A DNA stretch of 36,368 nt from Promethearchaeota archaeon (GCA_008080765.1 SHMU01000014.1:1-36368), one strand, 5' to 3'; numbered from the stretch's first letter, positions 2,647 to 11,919 are shown. A program made the numbers and translations. Notes: generated from the letters alone by a model not told the origin.

Positions 2647-2783
2647 ACTCAAAAGCAAAAGTTTAATTTATCCTTATGTTATTTTTTAGTAGTAGGCTTT
2701 TTTCATTGAAAAAAGAACTTAACATTTTCTTAAAATAAATCATACAAAATTTTATTGAATAATAAGGAGTTGTCTAAGAACCA

Positions 2784-4583
2784 ATGTCAGAGATCGATCT
2801 CACCGATATAAAACGGATGATGGAAAGAGGAGAATATCAGAAGGCGTTAGATGAATTAATTTCCTCAGTACATGATGATAATTACGATCAATTACCTCAA
2901 ATCCTTGAAGGTATCGTGGAATTGCAAACAAGAGGGGCTTTAGTACGGGATGAGCAACTGGATAAGATCAAACCGTATATTGTTGATTTTGATGAGAATA
3001 TTCAAGATTACGCGGTACAAATCTATACCCATAAAATGGAAAGTGAAATGGAATCACTTTATAATAATATGACCTTGCTTACTTCTAAAATTAGTGAATT
3101 TGAGTTGGGTATTCGCGAAAAGGTAGTAAGTTTTTTAGTAAAATCCTATAATACTATCACCAATAAAGAAAAAAGCATAATTGAGGGTTTGATTAATTGC
3201 TTAACAGACGAAGCTTGGAACGTAAGAATGGAAGTTATTCGCTTTTTGGATGAATTGCTCGTAAATAAACCTCATTTTATCAAGCAATTTGAAAATAATT
3301 TAAAAGTTTTATATGAGGAAAAAGATGTCGATGTCAAGAAAGAGGGGTTAGATCTATTATTACGATTATTTATAAAGACCTATGATATTGAAGATCTTGA
3401 AAATTTGATTCGAGAAATCCCTAATAATGAATGGCCGATTCAAGAAAAGTTAATTTTCTTGATTGGAAAATTAGGAATCCATCGAAAAGATCTCGTCGAA
3501 CCCAATGCTATGAACTTACTTTATTTATTAGATGATGATGATTTTCTAGTGAGGGAGGCAATTAAAGAGATCATTGAAGAGATTTTAGAAGTTCACGAGC
3601 ATCTCTTTGATGATGCATTTCTCAATGCTATAGAAAATGATGATGTTGAAAATTTAGATATTATTGAAGAAATACTCAAAACTTCCGTACTAAAAAAAGG
3701 ATTTGAACGGTTTTATTATTTTTTTACCTTAAATAATCCCAATTCAAATAAAGTAATCCGGGCATTAAGTGATGTAATTAAAAAGATTAATCTCTCCCAT
3801 CCAAGCTTTATCGAATCCTTAATCTCTCAATTGACCAATAGGGTGTTGAAAAACCTCACAGAAGACAATTATATTAAACTGATGCTGATAATACGATTAA
3901 ATCCGCAAGAAAATATCTATTTACAGTGTTATCAAATATTAAATGAAATTGATTTTATCAATAATCCTGAAGCAGAACGGCGCAGAAGATTAGTAATTGA
4001 GTATCTTTTAGAACAAAAACCAGAATTAAATTTCTCAAGAGTAAAAAAATGGATTGAAGCCAAAATTCTCGATGGTCCTATTAATATTAAAGATATTTCT
4101 AATAAATTTAATATCAGAGAAGATCAAATCCAATCCTATATAAAAAAATTAATCGAAAATGGAGAGTTAAATGCGATATTTTCCAATAATATTATTGCTG
4201 CGAACACGGGATCAACCTTTGAAGGTGAAGATCTCCTCTTCCTTAAAAAATGGGATATTTCAAAAAATGATGAAGATCCAAGTATGAATGATATCAAGCT
4301 GTTTATTCATATTAGAAACATCTCACAACCAAAAGCTATAATTACTAATTTGGATATAGAAATTGAGTATCCCTCAGATAGTTTTAATGTTTCTCTTGAA
4401 GAACAATCAGAGCGCACTCGTACGCTAACCCCTGACCAAAACCTCCTTCTCACCTATAAATTCCAGAAAAAAGGAGAGAAAAATTTAAGTCCGGAGATAA
4501 GTAATATCAAAATCGTGTTTAATTACCAAAAAGAAGGGAAAAACCGAACAATCGAGAAATATTTAGATGTTTTACTAGTTTAA
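2784..4583 (+). CDS. HEAT-like alpha-solenoid protein with winged-helix-like segment and C-terminal beta-rich domain
   Basis: 599 aa; repeated paired helices in the N-terminal two thirds, then GPINIKDISNKFNIREDQIQSYIKKLIENGELNAIF (winged-helix-like), then a beta-rich ~110-aa tail. Confidence 0.65.
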   Translation: MSEIDLTDIKRMMERGEYQKALDELISSVHDDNYDQLPQILEGIVELQTRGALVRDEQLDKIKPYIVDFDENIQDYAVQIYTHKMESEMESLYNNMTLLTSKISEFELGIREKVVSFLVKSYNTITNKEKSIIEGLINCLTDEAWNVRMEVIRFLDELLVNKPHFIKQFENNLKVLYEEKDVDVKKEGLDLLLRLFIKTYDIEDLENLIREIPNNEWPIQEKLIFLIGKLGIHRKDLVEPNAMNLLYLLDDDDFLVREAIKEIIEEILEVHEHLFDDAFLNAIENDDVENLDIIEEILKTSVLKKGFERFYYFFTLNNPNSNKVIRALSDVIKKINLSHPSFIESLISQLTNRVLKNLTEDNYIKLMLIIRLNPQENIYLQCYQILNEIDFINNPEAERRRRLVIEYLLEQKPELNFSRVKKWIEAKILDGPINIKDISNKFNIREDQIQSYIKKLIENGELNAIFSNNIIAANTGSTFEGEDLLFLKKWDISKNDEDPSMNDIKLFIHIRNISQPKAIITNLDIEIEYPSDSFNVSLEEQSERTRTLTPDQNLLLTYKFQKKGEKNLSPEISNIKIVFNYQKEGKNRTIEKYLDVLLV

Positions 4584-4862
4584 TCTCTCCTTTCATCTCT
4601 TTTTAGGCACATAAAAACAACCTCATAATGATTTTTTAAAATTTCGAGATGTAGTGGTTTACTGATAAAAATAAATGCAAGAGTTTTGGGAATACCTTCT
4701 TAGCAACTCATTTTAACATTCCTATCCTATTGAGATCTATAGTATTTATAATCATATCTTTTTTAAAATAGGTAAAAGAATTATTAACAAGGAAGGATAG
4801 TGGATATCAATAGTAATTAGTATATTATGGGGATGTAGAAAAATCCCCAGAGAGCGAGAAAA

Positions 4863-5156
4863 ATGGCTAGTAATCAGAATATAATGCTAAATTTATTAAA
4901 TGATGTTCCGGAGGACATTAAATCCTCAGAACTTTATGAAGAAGCGATGAAAAAGCATTCTCAATGCTCTATTTGCAATAAAACTCTATCCCTAATCGAC
5001 TATATCAATTCTAATCTACTGAATGGTTTATTCTGTGATCTAGGGCTTCCAAATAGAATAAAGTATTCACTTAAGCTTTGGAATAGCGAGAATCTTAAGC
5101 TATATTGCTGTGATTGCTATTTCGTTCATGAAGTAGAGGATTTTTATTCCCATTAA
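4863..5156 (+). CDS. Small putative zinc-binding protein
   Basis: 97 aa with CSICNK and CCDC motifs. Confidence 0.55.
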   Translation: MASNQNIMLNLLNDVPEDIKSSELYEEAMKKHSQCSICNKTLSLIDYINSNLLNGLFCDLGLPNRIKYSLKLWNSENLKLYCCDCYFVHEVEDFYSH

Positions 5157-5232
5157 CTACTATTAGTAAATGGGATAAATATAAAAGAAGTTGAGGGTAA
5201 AACGCATTTTTCCTTACTTAATTTGCTTGGGA

Positions 5233-6936
5233 CTATCTCTCAGGGTATGTCCTTCCTTTAAAGAGAGGACTCTGAATTTTGGACTTACTGTTAAGCTCTT
5301 CTTGTGGAAAACAGATGTAGCACCACCTAATCATATCTTGGAGTACGTATTTCCCATCCCAAGGCAGGCCGAAGTCGTTACTGTTATGTTCCCCTGCGCG
5401 CGGGAATCTAAACGCACCTAGGAGCGAAAGCTCTTCAGCAACTTCCTTAACAAAGCTATCCTCACCATATATGGCAGCAGTTTGAAGATATTGCTGCATC
5501 TCTTCTCTTCTGATATTATAAATTAGGTCCTGCACCGAAGATAACCTACAACAAATCAAAAACCGGTCTTGACACATATCGATTTCGTTCATTGTGGGTA
5601 AGCTGCGCATATACACTACAGTCCAGTCTAACTTATTTTTCGGAGGATATAATATTGTTGCTTTATTTTGTGTAACATAGTTTATGAAGAAGTATTCCCG
5701 CTTCCGTTGCATCTCTAAACTATCAGTCTGGCTTAGGTTTGCCCTTGGAAGTATCTCATCAGCGTTTCGTAATCCATTCGCGAGCATTTTGGCAAAGCCT
5801 AAGGGTGATAATTCAGAGATTTTATTTCTAAGGGTTTTTACAGAACGTTTCATAAGGGCTCCCATATTATATCCATTGATTTCGTTCGTATGAGAGAATT
5901 TATCAATAGAATCAGCAAATAGATTATTAAGTGAGGAGGATTCTATGGTTTCATCTTCTTCTGTTGAAGAATTATTATTTGTATCTCCCATAATCGCAGA
6001 TTCAAGGGGTTTATCAATAATGTAAATAACCCGAGGACTTAGACATGCTCTTTGATTCCAGAATACAACATCAATTGCAATCTTTTGAGCGATTTCTTGC
6101 ATAGTCTGTTCATTGTTAAATATATCCTCTGAAACCACAGAAAAAGACATTTTGGGACCGTTATCAATTATTTTAATCCCATAGCGATTGGCTCTCCTTC
6201 GTATATCTTCAATGGAGAAAATTGCCCCCCATGCAATTACACAATCAATATTTCCAGAATTGAATAACTCATCATAGATATCACCTCGGCTTCCCTTCCA
6301 ATAGATAGCTGCAATTTCTTTTGCTAGTTTTTTATCAACTTCAGCAATAGACTCGCAGAGTCGAACAGTTACGAAAGGTTCTTGATGAGAAAGCTTTAAA
6401 AGATTCACATTTTTCGTAATAAGTCCGTAGGATAAACTCGTGGGACCTAGTCCGAAGCTGTTTCCTGCTAAATTGTGACACACTACTCCTCTCGGTTGTG
6501 CATGAAGTCGAGCACTTCCTTTTTGAATCCAATCCTCTAAGTATTCTTTACCTCCAATTTCACCCAGTAATTGAAGCTCAGAATTTTTTTTATTCCATAG
6601 ACGTATTGTACCAAGAAATTCAATCTCGCAGAGTTCTCGGGATTGCCCTGTCATCATAGGGATTACTTCTAATACTTCTTTTCGTAGATCATAATTTGGG
6701 TCCATCCATAAATCCCCTACTTGATCCATTATCTCAAACAATTCATCCAAATCTCTGTCGTGAGCCCTTCTTTTCTTCGCAGCTAACTTTTCTGCTGTAT
6801 CTAATACCATGTCTTTATCAAAAACCGGAAATTCAAATTCCAAAACATCATCTTGGCGTTTTACTACTTCCTTTGTGGTATTATGGGAATATAAGGGTTT
6901 AAAGATAAAGCCCGGAATTTTTAATTTTTTATTCAA
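5233..6936 (-). CDS. luxC: LuxC-like long-chain acyl-CoA reductase
   Basis: GVVCHNLAGNSFGLGPTSLSYGLITKNVNLLKLS, catalytic-Cys region FWNQRACLSPRVIYI, and C-terminal FRFPRAGEHNSNDFGLPWDGKYVLQDMIRWCYI are characteristic of the LuxC family. Confidence 0.85.
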   Translation of the reverse strand: MNKKLKIPGFIFKPLYSHNTTKEVVKRQDDVLEFEFPVFDKDMVLDTAEKLAAKKRRAHDRDLDELFEIMDQVGDLWMDPNYDLRKEVLEVIPMMTGQSRELCEIEFLGTIRLWNKKNSELQLLGEIGGKEYLEDWIQKGSARLHAQPRGVVCHNLAGNSFGLGPTSLSYGLITKNVNLLKLSHQEPFVTVRLCESIAEVDKKLAKEIAAIYWKGSRGDIYDELFNSGNIDCVIAWGAIFSIEDIRRRANRYGIKIIDNGPKMSFSVVSEDIFNNEQTMQEIAQKIAIDVVFWNQRACLSPRVIYIIDKPLESAIMGDTNNNSSTEEDETIESSSLNNLFADSIDKFSHTNEINGYNMGALMKRSVKTLRNKISELSPLGFAKMLANGLRNADEILPRANLSQTDSLEMQRKREYFFINYVTQNKATILYPPKNKLDWTVVYMRSLPTMNEIDMCQDRFLICCRLSSVQDLIYNIRREEMQQYLQTAAIYGEDSFVKEVAEELSLLGAFRFPRAGEHNSNDFGLPWDGKYVLQDMIRWCYICFPQEELNSKSKIQSPLFKGRTYPER

Positions 6937-7055
6937 TTTTACTACTCATACTCATATATTAATTAATTCTATATACCTTATTATGTATAAAAAAGTTTAG
7001 AAAAAAAAAGGTAAGTATTCATAAAAATTTGTTTTTCAGCATGGAAAAATTAGGA

Positions 7056-8231
7056 TCATGAAATAGTTTCATCAGCTAACTGTACTCCGCATCCTTTGGC
7101 TTCTGCGCCTTCGGCCCGGCCAATACAATCGACCATCTTTCCTTTTCTTCCACAAGGACAATCATCTATCCCTGTAATGCGAACAATATCATCTTGAAGG
7201 ATAGATACTCCCGCATAACTATGTGCAAGAGGATTTATCAAATTTGCCAATCCCTTTTCTCCAACTTCTACAGGTTCTAAGGTTTCCACGTCTCGCACGA
7301 TGATGTCTCCCCATGGATAGCAGTGTTTGTTATGCTCCTCACATTCTACAAACAGTATATCAGACTCCGAAAAGGAGTAAATATCTCTGACATTTTTAGA
7401 TGAGATACCAAGTATTTTTGCCATATCCTCTCTAAATTGAACAGGAGAAATTGCATCTCCTTGGAATGATTTCCAGCCACCGCCTCCCAAGATAACAGAA
7501 TCTTTTCCAACGTCAAATGTTTGTCCTGTCTTTTGATGATATCCGTTTAAAGTCATATACATAAGCGGAACGCTTCCTGAAATCCATCCCTTTCCTTTAC
7601 TTCCTGGATTTGTTGCCAAGAACCCGAAGGTTGTTTGGGCATCGAATTCAAACCTTTTTCCTTTCTTTATTTCTTCGGGACTAGGAATTTTTAAGCAAAA
7701 GACTTTTTCGTCAGCAGTATTGACAAAATTCATCATTAGAGAGAACATAACGGTTGGAATTTCAATCTTCTCGTCAATTTCATATTCCTTTTGAGGTTCT
7801 GGGAGAAATAAAAGGCTCCATTTATAATTGCTTAATCCAACATCCTCTACTACATTATTGAACATTTTAACATAACGTAATACATTCGTGTGATCTCGTC
7901 CAACTATAGAAGGATCTCCACTTGTTCCAGTGGAACGGCTCCAAACTTGTATTTCGCTTTCGGGTACAGTCAGTAATTTTTTGGGTGATCCTTTTTGCTG
8001 TTTAAAGTTAGCAGTTGTGATGTAAGGTATATTAGCAAAATCATCAACACTCTGGAGGTCTTTTCGTGGATTGAAATTCTTCTGTTTACAAATCTGTCGA
8101 TATAAGTTGCATCCTTCAAATTGTCTTAGTAAGGATTCTTTAACCGCTTTATAAAGATCTTGTTTTACTTCGCTTTGATCGTCCTTTTTAATATTTTTTA
8201 ACCCTTTATCTAAAATTTCATCGATTATCAT
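7056..8231 (-). CDS. luxE: LuxE-like acyl-protein synthetase
   Basis: QVWSRSTGTSGDPSIVGRD adenylate-forming/acyl-transfer motif and adjacency to LuxC. Confidence 0.83.
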   Translation of the reverse strand: MIIDEILDKGLKNIKKDDQSEVKQDLYKAVKESLLRQFEGCNLYRQICKQKNFNPRKDLQSVDDFANIPYITTANFKQQKGSPKKLLTVPESEIQVWSRSTGTSGDPSIVGRDHTNVLRYVKMFNNVVEDVGLSNYKWSLLFLPEPQKEYEIDEKIEIPTVMFSLMMNFVNTADEKVFCLKIPSPEEIKKGKRFEFDAQTTFGFLATNPGSKGKGWISGSVPLMYMTLNGYHQKTGQTFDVGKDSVILGGGGWKSFQGDAISPVQFREDMAKILGISSKNVRDIYSFSESDILFVECEEHNKHCYPWGDIIVRDVETLEPVEVGEKGLANLINPLAHSYAGVSILQDDIVRITGIDDCPCGRKGKMVDCIGRAEGAEAKGCGVQLADETIS

Positions 8232-8354
8232 ATGTTTTATACTCTTACGTGTTAACCAAAATAAGATGGTTAGAATATTTAAATACTATGCATTATAAAG
8301 AAATAGATTAAGAAAAAAAGATAAGAAAAATTATTTGCAAGGGAAGAAGAGGAT

Positions 8355-9674
8355 TTAGTTTCCTCCCGCGAGTGTGACGAAAGTCATATTGTTGTTGTAA
8401 TAGCCTAGTCCTTTTTTTCCGAAAATTTCGCCTCCTGCACCGATGATCATTCGGGGGACATCCTTTCCGATGGTATCCTCGATTTTTTTAATAATTTCAG
8501 GTATCATATCACCGTAGCTCATGGCTCGATTAAAGCAATCAAATCCCAGCAAGAATTTAGGATTAGAAATATTTTCGATAGCCTCTTTAATTGCTTTTTC
8601 CGTAGTTTTCTTCAATACATTAATGTTACTTCTAAAAATTTCAATCTCTTCGGGTATCTCATAATTGAAGGGAAAGGACGTAGTGACGAGATTTGATAAA
8701 TTAGGATTAGTAAGAAGCCCAGAGAGGTGTACTAGCTCTCCTTCCTCAGTTTCTTCTCTAAATCCTAATGAAACATAAGGATTTTGATATCCAAAGGGTC
8801 TTAATTGTTCAAGAGATTCCATCTTTATTCCCGCTGCGTCACAAAAACCTTCCAATGCGGGGTCTCCATTGACTTTAAGGAAAAAACCTCCGATTTTTTT
8901 AGTGGGTGTTAGTGTTTTTCCAGTAGATTCTGCTCCAGCGCCAAATCCAAATCCAAACTTCGATTCTCCTTCTGCAGAGAGAATGGCACCTACTACATTA
9001 TTGTCACCTACCTCATCATTGTAAAATTCAACAGAATCGTAATTTCGAACGTTTGTAACAACGTTTCCTGCGATTGGTAGATCAAAACTTTTGCTATACA
9101 AGCTCTCTAATAATTCTTGAGCACTTGTAAGACCTAATCCTTCTTCTTTAAAATCATCGAGTTGTTTTTTGAAAAATCTGGAAACTAAGCCGGACATTAA
9201 TGAAACAATTCGCATATTAAGCATTTCTTGCTTCTTAAAAACTTCAGGGGGGAATTTGTATCCATCTTGAAACATTATCATGATCCTGCTGTCTTTTGGA
9301 GGGAGGGACTGGCTTTTTTGGTAAATATCTTCTGCAATATTCTCGTAATCGAGCTTAGAATCGGGATAATTATAGGAAAAATCAATATTTATATCACCTC
9401 CTAGCAACATTAATCCTGCGCTTCGAAATGCATATCGATTATTTATTAATACACCATTGGCAGTACTCCCAATTATAGTAATGGCAGGACCTAATTCCTC
9501 TCGTACTCCTTTTAAGACTTGCCCATATTTATAGTTTACTCGCGCAAGCGAATCAACGGCCAGTATTGCCAATTTGGGTTTGGCATTCATTCCTCCTAAA
9601 GCTTCTTTTGCGATATGTCTTCCTGCATTATAACTCTCATCTTCTGTTGTTATTGAAACTGCTGCATCAATCAT
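8355..9674 (-). CDS. FIST-domain (FIST_N/FIST_C) sensory protein
   Basis: IIGSTANGVLINNRYAFRSAGLMLLGG, IMIMFQDG, and C-terminal GFDCFNRAMSYGDMIPEIIKKIEDTIG...GAGGEIFGKKGLGYYNNNMTFVTL fit the FIST_N/FIST_C arrangement. Confidence 0.8.
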   Translation of the reverse strand: MIDAAVSITTEDESYNAGRHIAKEALGGMNAKPKLAILAVDSLARVNYKYGQVLKGVREELGPAITIIGSTANGVLINNRYAFRSAGLMLLGGDINIDFSYNYPDSKLDYENIAEDIYQKSQSLPPKDSRIMIMFQDGYKFPPEVFKKQEMLNMRIVSLMSGLVSRFFKKQLDDFKEEGLGLTSAQELLESLYSKSFDLPIAGNVVTNVRNYDSVEFYNDEVGDNNVVGAILSAEGESKFGFGFGAGAESTGKTLTPTKKIGGFFLKVNGDPALEGFCDAAGIKMESLEQLRPFGYQNPYVSLGFREETEEGELVHLSGLLTNPNLSNLVTTSFPFNYEIPEEIEIFRSNINVLKKTTEKAIKEAIENISNPKFLLGFDCFNRAMSYGDMIPEIIKKIEDTIGKDVPRMIIGAGGEIFGKKGLGYYNNNMTFVTLAGGN

Positions 9675-9734
9675 TTTTAATTTTTTAGTTCTAATTTATT
9701 CTCTTTTTAATTAGAAATATATAGAAAGTAATTC

Positions 9735-10280
9735 TTAGAAATTTTTAATAAAATCATCTATTTTATCTTTCAATTCACTTAGATGCATAGAAATGTCTAA
9801 TAAGAACGATTTAAATTGTTCTTTAAGCTCATTATCCTCTTGAACCATTATTTCGGGAGTCATTGCGGGTTCTTGAGAAGGTAGTCCCGGTTCTAAACCA
9901 GATTTAGTTTCAGTTTCAGCTTCAACAACATGTTCTGGTATAAATTTAGGTGCCTCCTCTTCAAATGTCTCTTCAGTAGCTTCAAGCAATTGCGCTTCAG
10001 ATAAATTTGGAAATTGTTCCGGTTCCGCTCCACTTTCGACCACTTCTATAGATGCTCCATAGAGTTTTTTTCGCGATTTAATTTTAGTAGCACTTACACC
10101 CGCATGATAACGGTCGATCATACTTGAATTAGAGCCGCTCCATATCCAAATTTTCGGTCGCTTGGCATGAGTGTCCAGTATAATATATATTTTTTCTTCA
10201 TTTAGATCGGTATTATCTACTGGTATAATATCTTTCCCACTCACCGTATAGATCATTAAACTCATTTCTTCTCTTTTCAC
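9735..10280 (-). CDS. Single gelsolin-like domain protein with acidic linker and C-terminal helix
   Basis: KIYIILDTHAKRPKIWIWSGSNSSMIDRYHAGVSATKIKSRKKLYGASIEVVESGAEPEQF matches the gelsolin repeat pattern (YiiD...I.vWiG..a....r..A...A......I.vVe.G.Ep..F). Confidence 0.72.
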   Translation of the reverse strand: MKREEMSLMIYTVSGKDIIPVDNTDLNEEKIYIILDTHAKRPKIWIWSGSNSSMIDRYHAGVSATKIKSRKKLYGASIEVVESGAEPEQFPNLSEAQLLEATEETFEEEAPKFIPEHVVEAETETKSGLEPGLPSQEPAMTPEIMVQEDNELKEQFKSFLLDISMHLSELKDKIDDFIKNF

Positions 10281-10284
10281 CTTT

Positions 10285-11268
10285 TTATAATTTTATTATT
10301 CGACTTGCCCAATTATTAATTCTATTTTTAAATTCTTTTATTTCTGCAATTCCAAGTTCTCGATTAATTTTACTTAGTTCTTGTTCGGCTTTAGAGATAT
10401 CAAAGAGAGCTAAAGAGGTTCCTATATTTAATAAGATACCATCTTTTAGCTGTTCTAATAAGCCTCCTAATTCATTTCCGGTCAATTGTTCGAGGAGAGA
10501 TTTTAATTCATTAAAAATGGTTTTTAGTGTATGATATCTTTGTTCTATATCTTTAGTTTCTAATGATTTTATCCTATCCTCTATTGATTCTTCAGAAACT
10601 TCTGGCGTGACAGCCTCTACTTCGGTGGATGGTTCTATAGACGCCTCTACTGGGCTTATTTCTGTAGCTTTTGGCATAGTCTCGATATCTTCAGCTTGTT
10701 CCACTTGTACGGGTTCAAGCTCGACAGAAGGTAATGGCTCCTCCTCTATAGGCTCCACTGTCACTATTTCTTTAGCCACAAGAGGTTCTGATACTGCTGG
10801 TTGTTCTGCTCCTACAACCGTAGGTGCAATACCCTCTTTTTCTCCCAGAAATCCAAAATCTTTCCCGGGTAACTTTAGAATATCATCTCCAATTTCGGCA
10901 ATTTTTTCTCGAGCTCTTTTTAAGATGTCAATCATTGCCAGTCTTACATATGAAAGATTCATCTCATCCGATCCGAGTGCGAGTAATAATAGATGAGGAG
11001 GAATATCGTAGAGTAATACATATCCTTTATCTCCCTCTATCATCAATTCATTAAGATCTCCATGATTTATTCCGTTTGAAAATTGCCTAAAAGTATCGCG
11101 TAAAACGCCGATTTCCCACAGAATCTCGTCAGGAACTCGAAAAGGAATAGTGCTTTCAATAATGATATCATCTTTAGCATTGATGAAAAAACAACCATTA
11201 AGGTCTGTTACCTTCTCTATCTCTTGAAGAAACTCGATGAGATTATAGTCATGAATCATTTCCGTCAT
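10285..11268 (-). CDS. Roadblock/LC7-domain protein with Glu/Pro-rich linker and C-terminal helical domain
   Basis: N-terminal ~120 aa (LIEFLQEIEKVTDLNGCFFINAKDDIIIESTIP...GDKGYVLLYDIPPHLLLLALGSDEMNLSYVRLAMIDILKRAREKI) fits Roadblock/LC7; then an acidic low-complexity linker and helical C-terminus. Confidence 0.75.
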   Translation of the reverse strand: MTEMIHDYNLIEFLQEIEKVTDLNGCFFINAKDDIIIESTIPFRVPDEILWEIGVLRDTFRQFSNGINHGDLNELMIEGDKGYVLLYDIPPHLLLLALGSDEMNLSYVRLAMIDILKRAREKIAEIGDDILKLPGKDFGFLGEKEGIAPTVVGAEQPAVSEPLVAKEIVTVEPIEEEPLPSVELEPVQVEQAEDIETMPKATEISPVEASIEPSTEVEAVTPEVSEESIEDRIKSLETKDIEQRYHTLKTIFNELKSLLEQLTGNELGGLLEQLKDGILLNIGTSLALFDISKAEQELSKINRELGIAEIKEFKNRINNWASRIIKL

Positions 11269-11269
11269 C

Positions 11270-11680
11270 TTATATATCTGACACCCCCAATGTAAATCCT
11301 TCCAGTAGTTTTTCTAATTCTATGGCGAGATTTGCCATTCCAAAAGCTATCCTGAAGAGGTCTGCTTCCTTGTCGATGATTGTACTTAAAATGGCGGTTG
11401 GTCCCGCATCTTGGATTACGACACGTCCATGGACGCTATTTATGTATAATCGTTGTAAATTACCTTTTCTCAATTGTTCACAGAGATATCTGAAAGTAAG
11501 TTTCACTGCTGCAGAGATTGCCCCAACCAAGATGGGATCAATTTCCCCACCTTCCCACGTGTTGACAATCGGTACCCCTCCGGGGTATTCAATAAGAATC
11601 TGCCCTTGTACATCATCTTGGGAATCTGTAAATTCCCGCATTAAAGATTTTATGTTTTCTAATTGTTCTTCATTTGACAT
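11270..11680 (-). CDS. Roadblock/LC7-domain protein
   Basis: 136 aa; VQGQILIEYPGGVPIVNTW...GNLQRLYINSVHGRVVIQDAGPTAILSTIIDKEADLFRIAFGMANLAIELEKLL. Stop TAA is 1 nt before the next ATG. Confidence 0.75.
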   Translation of the reverse strand: MSNEEQLENIKSLMREFTDSQDDVQGQILIEYPGGVPIVNTWEGGEIDPILVGAISAAVKLTFRYLCEQLRKGNLQRLYINSVHGRVVIQDAGPTAILSTIIDKEADLFRIAFGMANLAIELEKLLEGFTLGVSDI

Positions 11681-11919
11681 ATAATCAGTCTTCTAATGTT
11701 ACTAATTTTTTATAATTAAATTATATTCTAAACCTTTATAATTATTTATAATTTTGATGGTTATTATTTAATGGGAATGGAATACTAAATGTATAAAACC
11801 GAGAATAGCCGCAAATTGGTTTATCAATCAAATTCATTAATAATGAATTTTTTTAGTATTTATTACATAGATCGAATTATTTTAATTAGAGAGAAGTAAA
11901 TTAGAGAGTGTGGTAATGG

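Follow-up and report, generated by a model that had tools for sequence, protein, structure and literature searches.

Among the closest described counterparts of the locus reported here are the conservons (cvn) of actinobacteria, which consist of a sensor kinase-like protein (CvnA), a Roadblock protein (CvnB), CvnC and a Ras-like GTPase (CvnD) (PMC13343842, PMC8510531). Roadblock proteins are also found in the MglA/MglB and Ragulator systems. Asgard archaea, which include the Lokiarchaea, are the archaeal group closest to eukaryotes, and they are rich in both small GTPases and Roadblocks. According to a recent structural study, GTPase genes of MK-D1 generally lie outside the operons of their regulators, so that it is difficult to tell which regulator goes with which GTPase (PMC10933270).

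The window analysed here is a stretch of 36,368 nucleotides on contig C14 of genome G000, a Lokiarchaeal MAG of 3.9 Mb. Positions 5233-11680 of its minus strand hold, in transcription order, RLC1, RLC2, GEL, FIST, LuxE and LuxC. A model working from the DNA alone had earlier described these as six consecutive genes. All six open reading frames are where this original prediction placed them, the same gaps of 1, 4, 60, 123 and 119 nt were recovered, and the TAA-G-ATG junction at 11272-11266 is present. The six genes are not the full extent of the block however. A seventh, convergent gene at 2784-4583, encoding HEAT repeats, had been overlooked. Comparison with empty sites puts the approximate limits of the whole discrete block at 2647..11919, between orf232 and an FGGY kinase.

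We read this locus as a signalling island of seven genes, with a patchy distribution among Lokiarchaeia, in which FIST would act via the Roadblocks on a Ras-like GTPase, and we give this reading about an even chance. By analogy, its logic resembles that of conservons and MglAB, but the sensor, the enzymes and the extra proteins differ. What is shared with conservons is the operon logic of sensor, Roadblock and Ras-like GTPase, and the RLC1 profile matches cvnB5 (3leq, E=6e-4). Of the conservon elements, the Lokiarchaeal cassette itself has the Roadblock only: there is no CvnC and no GTPase, the sensor is a FIST protein and not histidine-kinase-like, there are two Roadblocks, and LuxEC, gelsolin and HEAT proteins are added. 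Related operons of families f9 and f18 do add a Ras GTPase, yet they have FIST and KaiC instead of CvnA and CvnC. Similarly, the RLC2 model matches the Roadblocks of MglB and Ragulator, with a presumed role in small-GTPase control, but the cassette is without an MglA or Rag gene.

RLC1 (11270..11680, minus strand, 136 aa) is Roadblock/LC7-like, is the first gene of the cassette and is kept in 7 cassettes. RLC2 (10285..11268, minus strand) is a protein of 327 aa. The original prediction called both of them Roadblocks. By the Pfam standard that call fails, since RLC1 and RLC2 reach 13.9 and 14.8 bits against PF03259, where the cut-off is 23. They are Roadblocks despite this shortfall because of their sequence matches to Asgard crystal structures and because of the RLC2 model. 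RLC1 matches the solved Asgard Roadblock 9jue (phmmer E=3e-11; profile E=1.7e-19), and RLC2 matches the Asgard Roadblock structure 7f8m (phmmer E=5e-5). The AF2 model of RLC2 has 9jue (MK-D1 Roadblock3) and MglB as its best Foldseek matches, at prob 1.00. This model consists of a Roadblock domain (residues ~10-132), a disordered acidic linker (140-225) and a C-terminal five-helix domain (229-324). RLC1 and RLC2 probably form a heterodimer. Their putative tie to small GTPases comes only from related operons, where Ras GTPase genes accompany Roadblock genes.

The cassette is far beyond chance, because its order is kept across genera and families, and because genomes have either the whole block or none of it. 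The original prediction was staked on there being a conserved neighbourhood in other Asgard genomes, and there is one. LuxE and LuxC, which it treated as possible members, are clearly part of it. Among 61 relatives, FIST homologues at 35-81% identity sit in conserved cassettes, and RLC1-RLC2-(gelsolin)-FIST-LuxE-LuxC is found in Lokiarchaeota to as low as 51% FIST identity. The order is conserved in five further Lokiarchaeal genomes: it is whole in G004, G006 and G035, G008 has it up to a point within RLC2 where the contig stops, and G016 has it spread over two contigs, with LuxC at a contig end. Another family of the same taxonomic order (G048) has the cassette without the gelsolin gene. The Helarchaeon G056 has the arrangement FIST-LuxE-LuxC-RLC1-RLC2, and none of the gaps there is longer than 51 nt. 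Given that all five genes are there in a different order, the five-gene core survives rearrangement. Closely related FIST (E<1e-190) and LuxC (E<1e-250) proteins occur in the same 8 of the phylum's 231 genomes. A search for the linkage outside the phylum, done as a single scan of genome contigs, returned only Lokiarchaeota and one Helarchaeota record.

The seventh gene (2784..4583, plus strand, 599 aa) encodes a HEAT-repeat solenoid with winged-helix-like and beta-rich C-terminal parts, and is included on the basis of its co-occurrence with the cassette. It faces LuxC in every Lokiarchaeal cassette with a contig that is long enough. Within the taxonomic order it is present in 6 of 81 genomes, all six of which carry the cassette (hypergeometric ~2e-8, a figure that presupposes independent genomes, an assumption that does not hold). 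Three genomes, G001 and G002 of the same genus as well as G014, have orf382-orf232-FGGY-membrane protein-HerA contiguously, with neither HEAT gene nor cassette. In the window and in G004, orf232 and the FGGY kinase gene are the immediate neighbours of the entire block, one on each side. Because HEAT tracks the cassette exactly and the empty sites are clean, the ~9-kb block behaves as a single unit that is gained or lost. Next to the block in G006, G035 and G048, none of these flanking genes was found. A Helarchaeal HEAT/adaptin-like gene 5' of FIST was considered as an orthologue of the HEAT gene and rejected, as its score is too weak. Between HEAT and LuxC, the window also has a 97-aa cysteine-rich open reading frame (4863-5156, plus strand) without a family match; the HEAT-LuxC gap of G004, at 32 nt, is too short for a counterpart.

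FIST and Roadblock genes are also found together elsewhere in the phylum. Counted over the whole phylum, 46 genomes have a FIST match, and in 42 of these a Roadblock lies beside or near it. Families f9 and f20 (23 genomes) have the order KaiC-Roadblock-FIST-Ras GTPase-small protein. KaiC and an adjacent Roadblock are there in 23/23 and the Ras gene in 21/23, the other two being on cut contigs. In family f18 the order is Ras-KaiC-Roadblock-FIST-MFS transporter, with the Roadblock in 11/12 (the twelfth is at a contig end), KaiC in 10/12 and Ras in 9/12. The FIST-Roadblock operons of f9 and f18 are without LuxEC.

The f9 and f18 Roadblocks fall into a single subfamily, which is no nearer to RLC1 and RLC2 than unrelated Roadblocks are; orthology with RLC1 and RLC2 is not supported. 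Because of this difference the pairing is not one frozen operon, and to judge from these sequences it probably arose or was rebuilt more than once. A genome of such size has ~14 Roadblock genes, with RLC1 and RLC2 counted in, and with so few of them a chance adjacency of FIST and Roadblock in three lineages is very unlikely. No paper with both 'FIST domain' and 'Roadblock' was found in a literature search that has subscription journals and preprints largely outside its coverage. The KaiC-Roadblock-FIST-Ras operons are at loci L017, L051, L055, L057 and L019-L040. One operon group carries an MFS transporter plus a SAM hydroxide adenosyltransferase.

FIST itself (8355..9674, minus strand, 439 aa) is a predicted ligand sensor of the FIST/FIST_C type. 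It scores 41.1 bits against FIST (PF08495, cut-off 23.2, E=2.3e-10) and 30.3 bits against FIST_C (PF10442, cut-off 28.5, E=5.2e-7). A Pfam FIST search of the protein's own genome came back empty while a protein query recovered the gene, so the search missed a gene that is present. The AF2 model has a pTM of 0.84, and a fold search gave human FBXO22 as the best solved match (E=4.5e-8). FBXO22 was found by this fold search alone; a PDB sequence search with the FIST profile yielded nothing.

FBXO22 is a FIST-domain F-box protein that binds synthetic aldehydes at C326 as a hemithioacetal, with E362 close by (PMC13316043). In Asgard FIST, C380 and E416 are invariant and are separated by the same 36 residues. 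Unlike FBXO22, Asgard FIST is without an F-box, and sequence identity is 10-11%. E416 moreover falls in a low-confidence region of the model. The C380/E416 pair suggests aldehyde sensing, without establishing it. It is near-universal in the FIST_C proteins examined, including FISTs without LuxEC neighbours, and is therefore not specific to aldehydes.

The enzymes are more straightforward. LuxE (7056..8231, minus strand, 391 aa) belongs to a family of acyl-adenylating, acyl-protein-forming enzymes, and LuxC (5233..6936, minus strand, 567 aa) to the acyl-thioester reductases. Both are above the Pfam cut-off (LuxE E=3e-43, 148.6 bits; LuxC E=1.6e-72, 245.1 bits), as are FIST and GEL, so that these four domain calls of the original prediction hold. 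Profile matches to the bacterial LuxC-LuxE fatty-acid reductase 7xc6 (LuxE E=4e-38; LuxC E=3.6e-37) align the invariant Cys381 of LuxE and the invariant Cys298 of LuxC (WNQxACxSPR) with what we take to be the catalytic cysteines of that complex. Because of this alignment, LuxE and LuxC likely reduce an acid to an aldehyde. As in the bacterial reductase, the genes are adjacent, and both families are present with both catalytic cysteines. Unlike it, the pair has signalling neighbours and is far under the NCBIfam equivalog cut-offs (106.7 vs 550 bits for LuxE, 106.9 vs 750 for LuxC). No LuxAB luciferase and no LuxD thioesterase was seen among the tested cassette proteins, which sets the cassette apart from bacterial lux (bioluminescence) systems.

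Other Asgard LuxE-LuxC pairs, at L095-L099, are of a different type. At L098 the pair is found 3' of an AMP-binding ligase and an iron alcohol dehydrogenase, which suggests acid-to-alcohol metabolism. Another Asgard LuxE-LuxC setting has a dehydrogenase, a glycosyltransferase and a CDP-alcohol transferase.

GEL (9735..10280, minus strand) has one gelsolin-like domain (PF00626, cut-off 21 bits; score 25.0 bits, E=1.7e-5). Its closest solved match is the Asgard gelsolin-like protein 2DGel3 (7c2g/7c2h, E=1e-8), across the gelsolin domain; unlike 2DGel3, GEL is a single domain with a conserved C-terminal helix, and it has a paralogue in chemotaxis operons. The open reading frame as annotated begins with GTG. 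The true start is probably the ATG at 10265, giving 176 aa and a gap to RLC2 of ~19 nt, because the G004 relative starts at the equivalent ATG and an AAAGGTG motif lies 5' of that ATG.

The nearest Lokiarchaeal paralogues of GEL sit in chemotaxis operons containing Ras-like GTPases. The paralogue in G000 adjoins a CheW-CheC fusion and a Ras-like GTPase that is extended at its N-terminus; that of G147 is followed by CheR, CheB, CheD, CheC and a Ras-like GTPase. With the cassette on one side and these operons on the other, the GEL family is tied to signalling in two settings, and a chemosensory-GTPase link at the paralogue loci is possible. CheW-CheC fusions and Ras-like GTPases were seen at three such loci, L112 (G000:C5:12001-25000), L117 and L121. 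L117 also has CheR, CheB, CheD and CheC, and L112 a histidine kinase-receiver protein and a Rag-like GTPase. GEL is absent from the f2-family and Helarchaeal versions of the cassette. It would be a lineage-specific output or adaptor with putative actin activity. In the original prediction, the module was to connect the sensing of a ligand with control of a GTPase or of the cytoskeleton. The GTPase link has strong comparative support, but the cytoskeletal one is weaker, given these versions without GEL.

In the signalling reading, FIST would bind a small ligand and act on the RLC1-RLC2 pair, presumably by physical contact. The pair would in turn regulate, in trans, a Ras-like GTPase encoded elsewhere in Lokiarchaeota, the equivalent of which would be the GTPase gene that two other Asgard family groups have inside their operons. 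From a carboxylic acid, LuxE and LuxC would make an aldehyde by activation and reduction, a possible ligand to be read by the FIST cysteine, so LuxEC may either supply the ligand or respond to it. GEL and HEAT might serve as output or scaffold, on actin or on a membrane. What counts against this mechanism is that the Lokiarchaeal cassette has no GTPase gene. Aldehyde sensing combined with an actin output is much less probable than the FIST-Roadblock-GTPase axis. Its full form, in which an aldehyde from LuxEC reversibly modifies the FIST cysteine and the signal passes via the Roadblock heterodimer, a Ras-like GTPase and the gelsolin-like protein to actin, we consider distinctly improbable. If true, the lineage nearest to eukaryotes would have a GTPase system that is both gated by a ligand and transferable.

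The block could also be metabolic at heart. LuxE and LuxC would then serve the metabolism of lipids or alcohols by making an aldehyde from a fatty, aryl or isoprenoid acid, with FIST and the Roadblocks as a scaffold or feedback sensor and no small GTPase involved. The metabolic settings of the other Asgard LuxE-LuxC pairs point this way, and both genes are among the best conserved of the block. But the cassette is accompanied by no ligase, thioesterase, alcohol dehydrogenase or transporter, and FIST-Roadblock operons with Ras GTPases exist that have no LuxEC at all; we regard this explanation as rather unlikely, if still deserving of some weight. The same f9 and f18 operons would fit a FIST ligand other than an aldehyde (haem or NO as in NosP, an amino acid, a thioester), LuxEC then being a regulated output enzyme and not the source of the signal. 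NosP is a characterised FIST family, and there is a weak match to it (E=0.057), but at 12.5 bits this is far under the equivalog cut-off of 450, and such a ligand appears unlikely. The patchy distribution, clean insertion site and varied genomic locations could finally be those of mobile-element or anti-virus cargo, spread by defence or selfish transfer. Yet no integrase and no terminal repeats were found at the block, and gene order is conserved in distant lineages. The defence-island version found no support, as there is no meaningful PADLOC or PHROG family match. There is very little to recommend the cargo idea as a whole.

The FIST-Roadblock-Ras operons are defined, expressible sets of sensor, regulator and GTPase. 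They make it directly testable how small-GTPase signalling gained ligand inputs before eukaryotes. The island of Lokiarchaea contributes, in addition, two enzymes by which the signal may be produced.

Within the window, T-rich tracts are found 3' of FIST and of LuxE, and these allow for separate transcripts of parts of the cassette. Scans for sigma-70-type promoters and terminators did no better than on shuffles; such models do not fit archaea. A second LuxE-LuxC-HEAT fragment in G048 (L089, on C684) is 74-90% identical to the window. This makes it closer to the window than G004 is, which is of the same genus, and points to recent transfer or to bin contamination. At L052:6355-10302, a single protein of 1315 aa fuses FIST to multiple PAS domains, a GAF domain and a histidine kinase, with a Ras-like GTPase gene nearby on the opposite strand.
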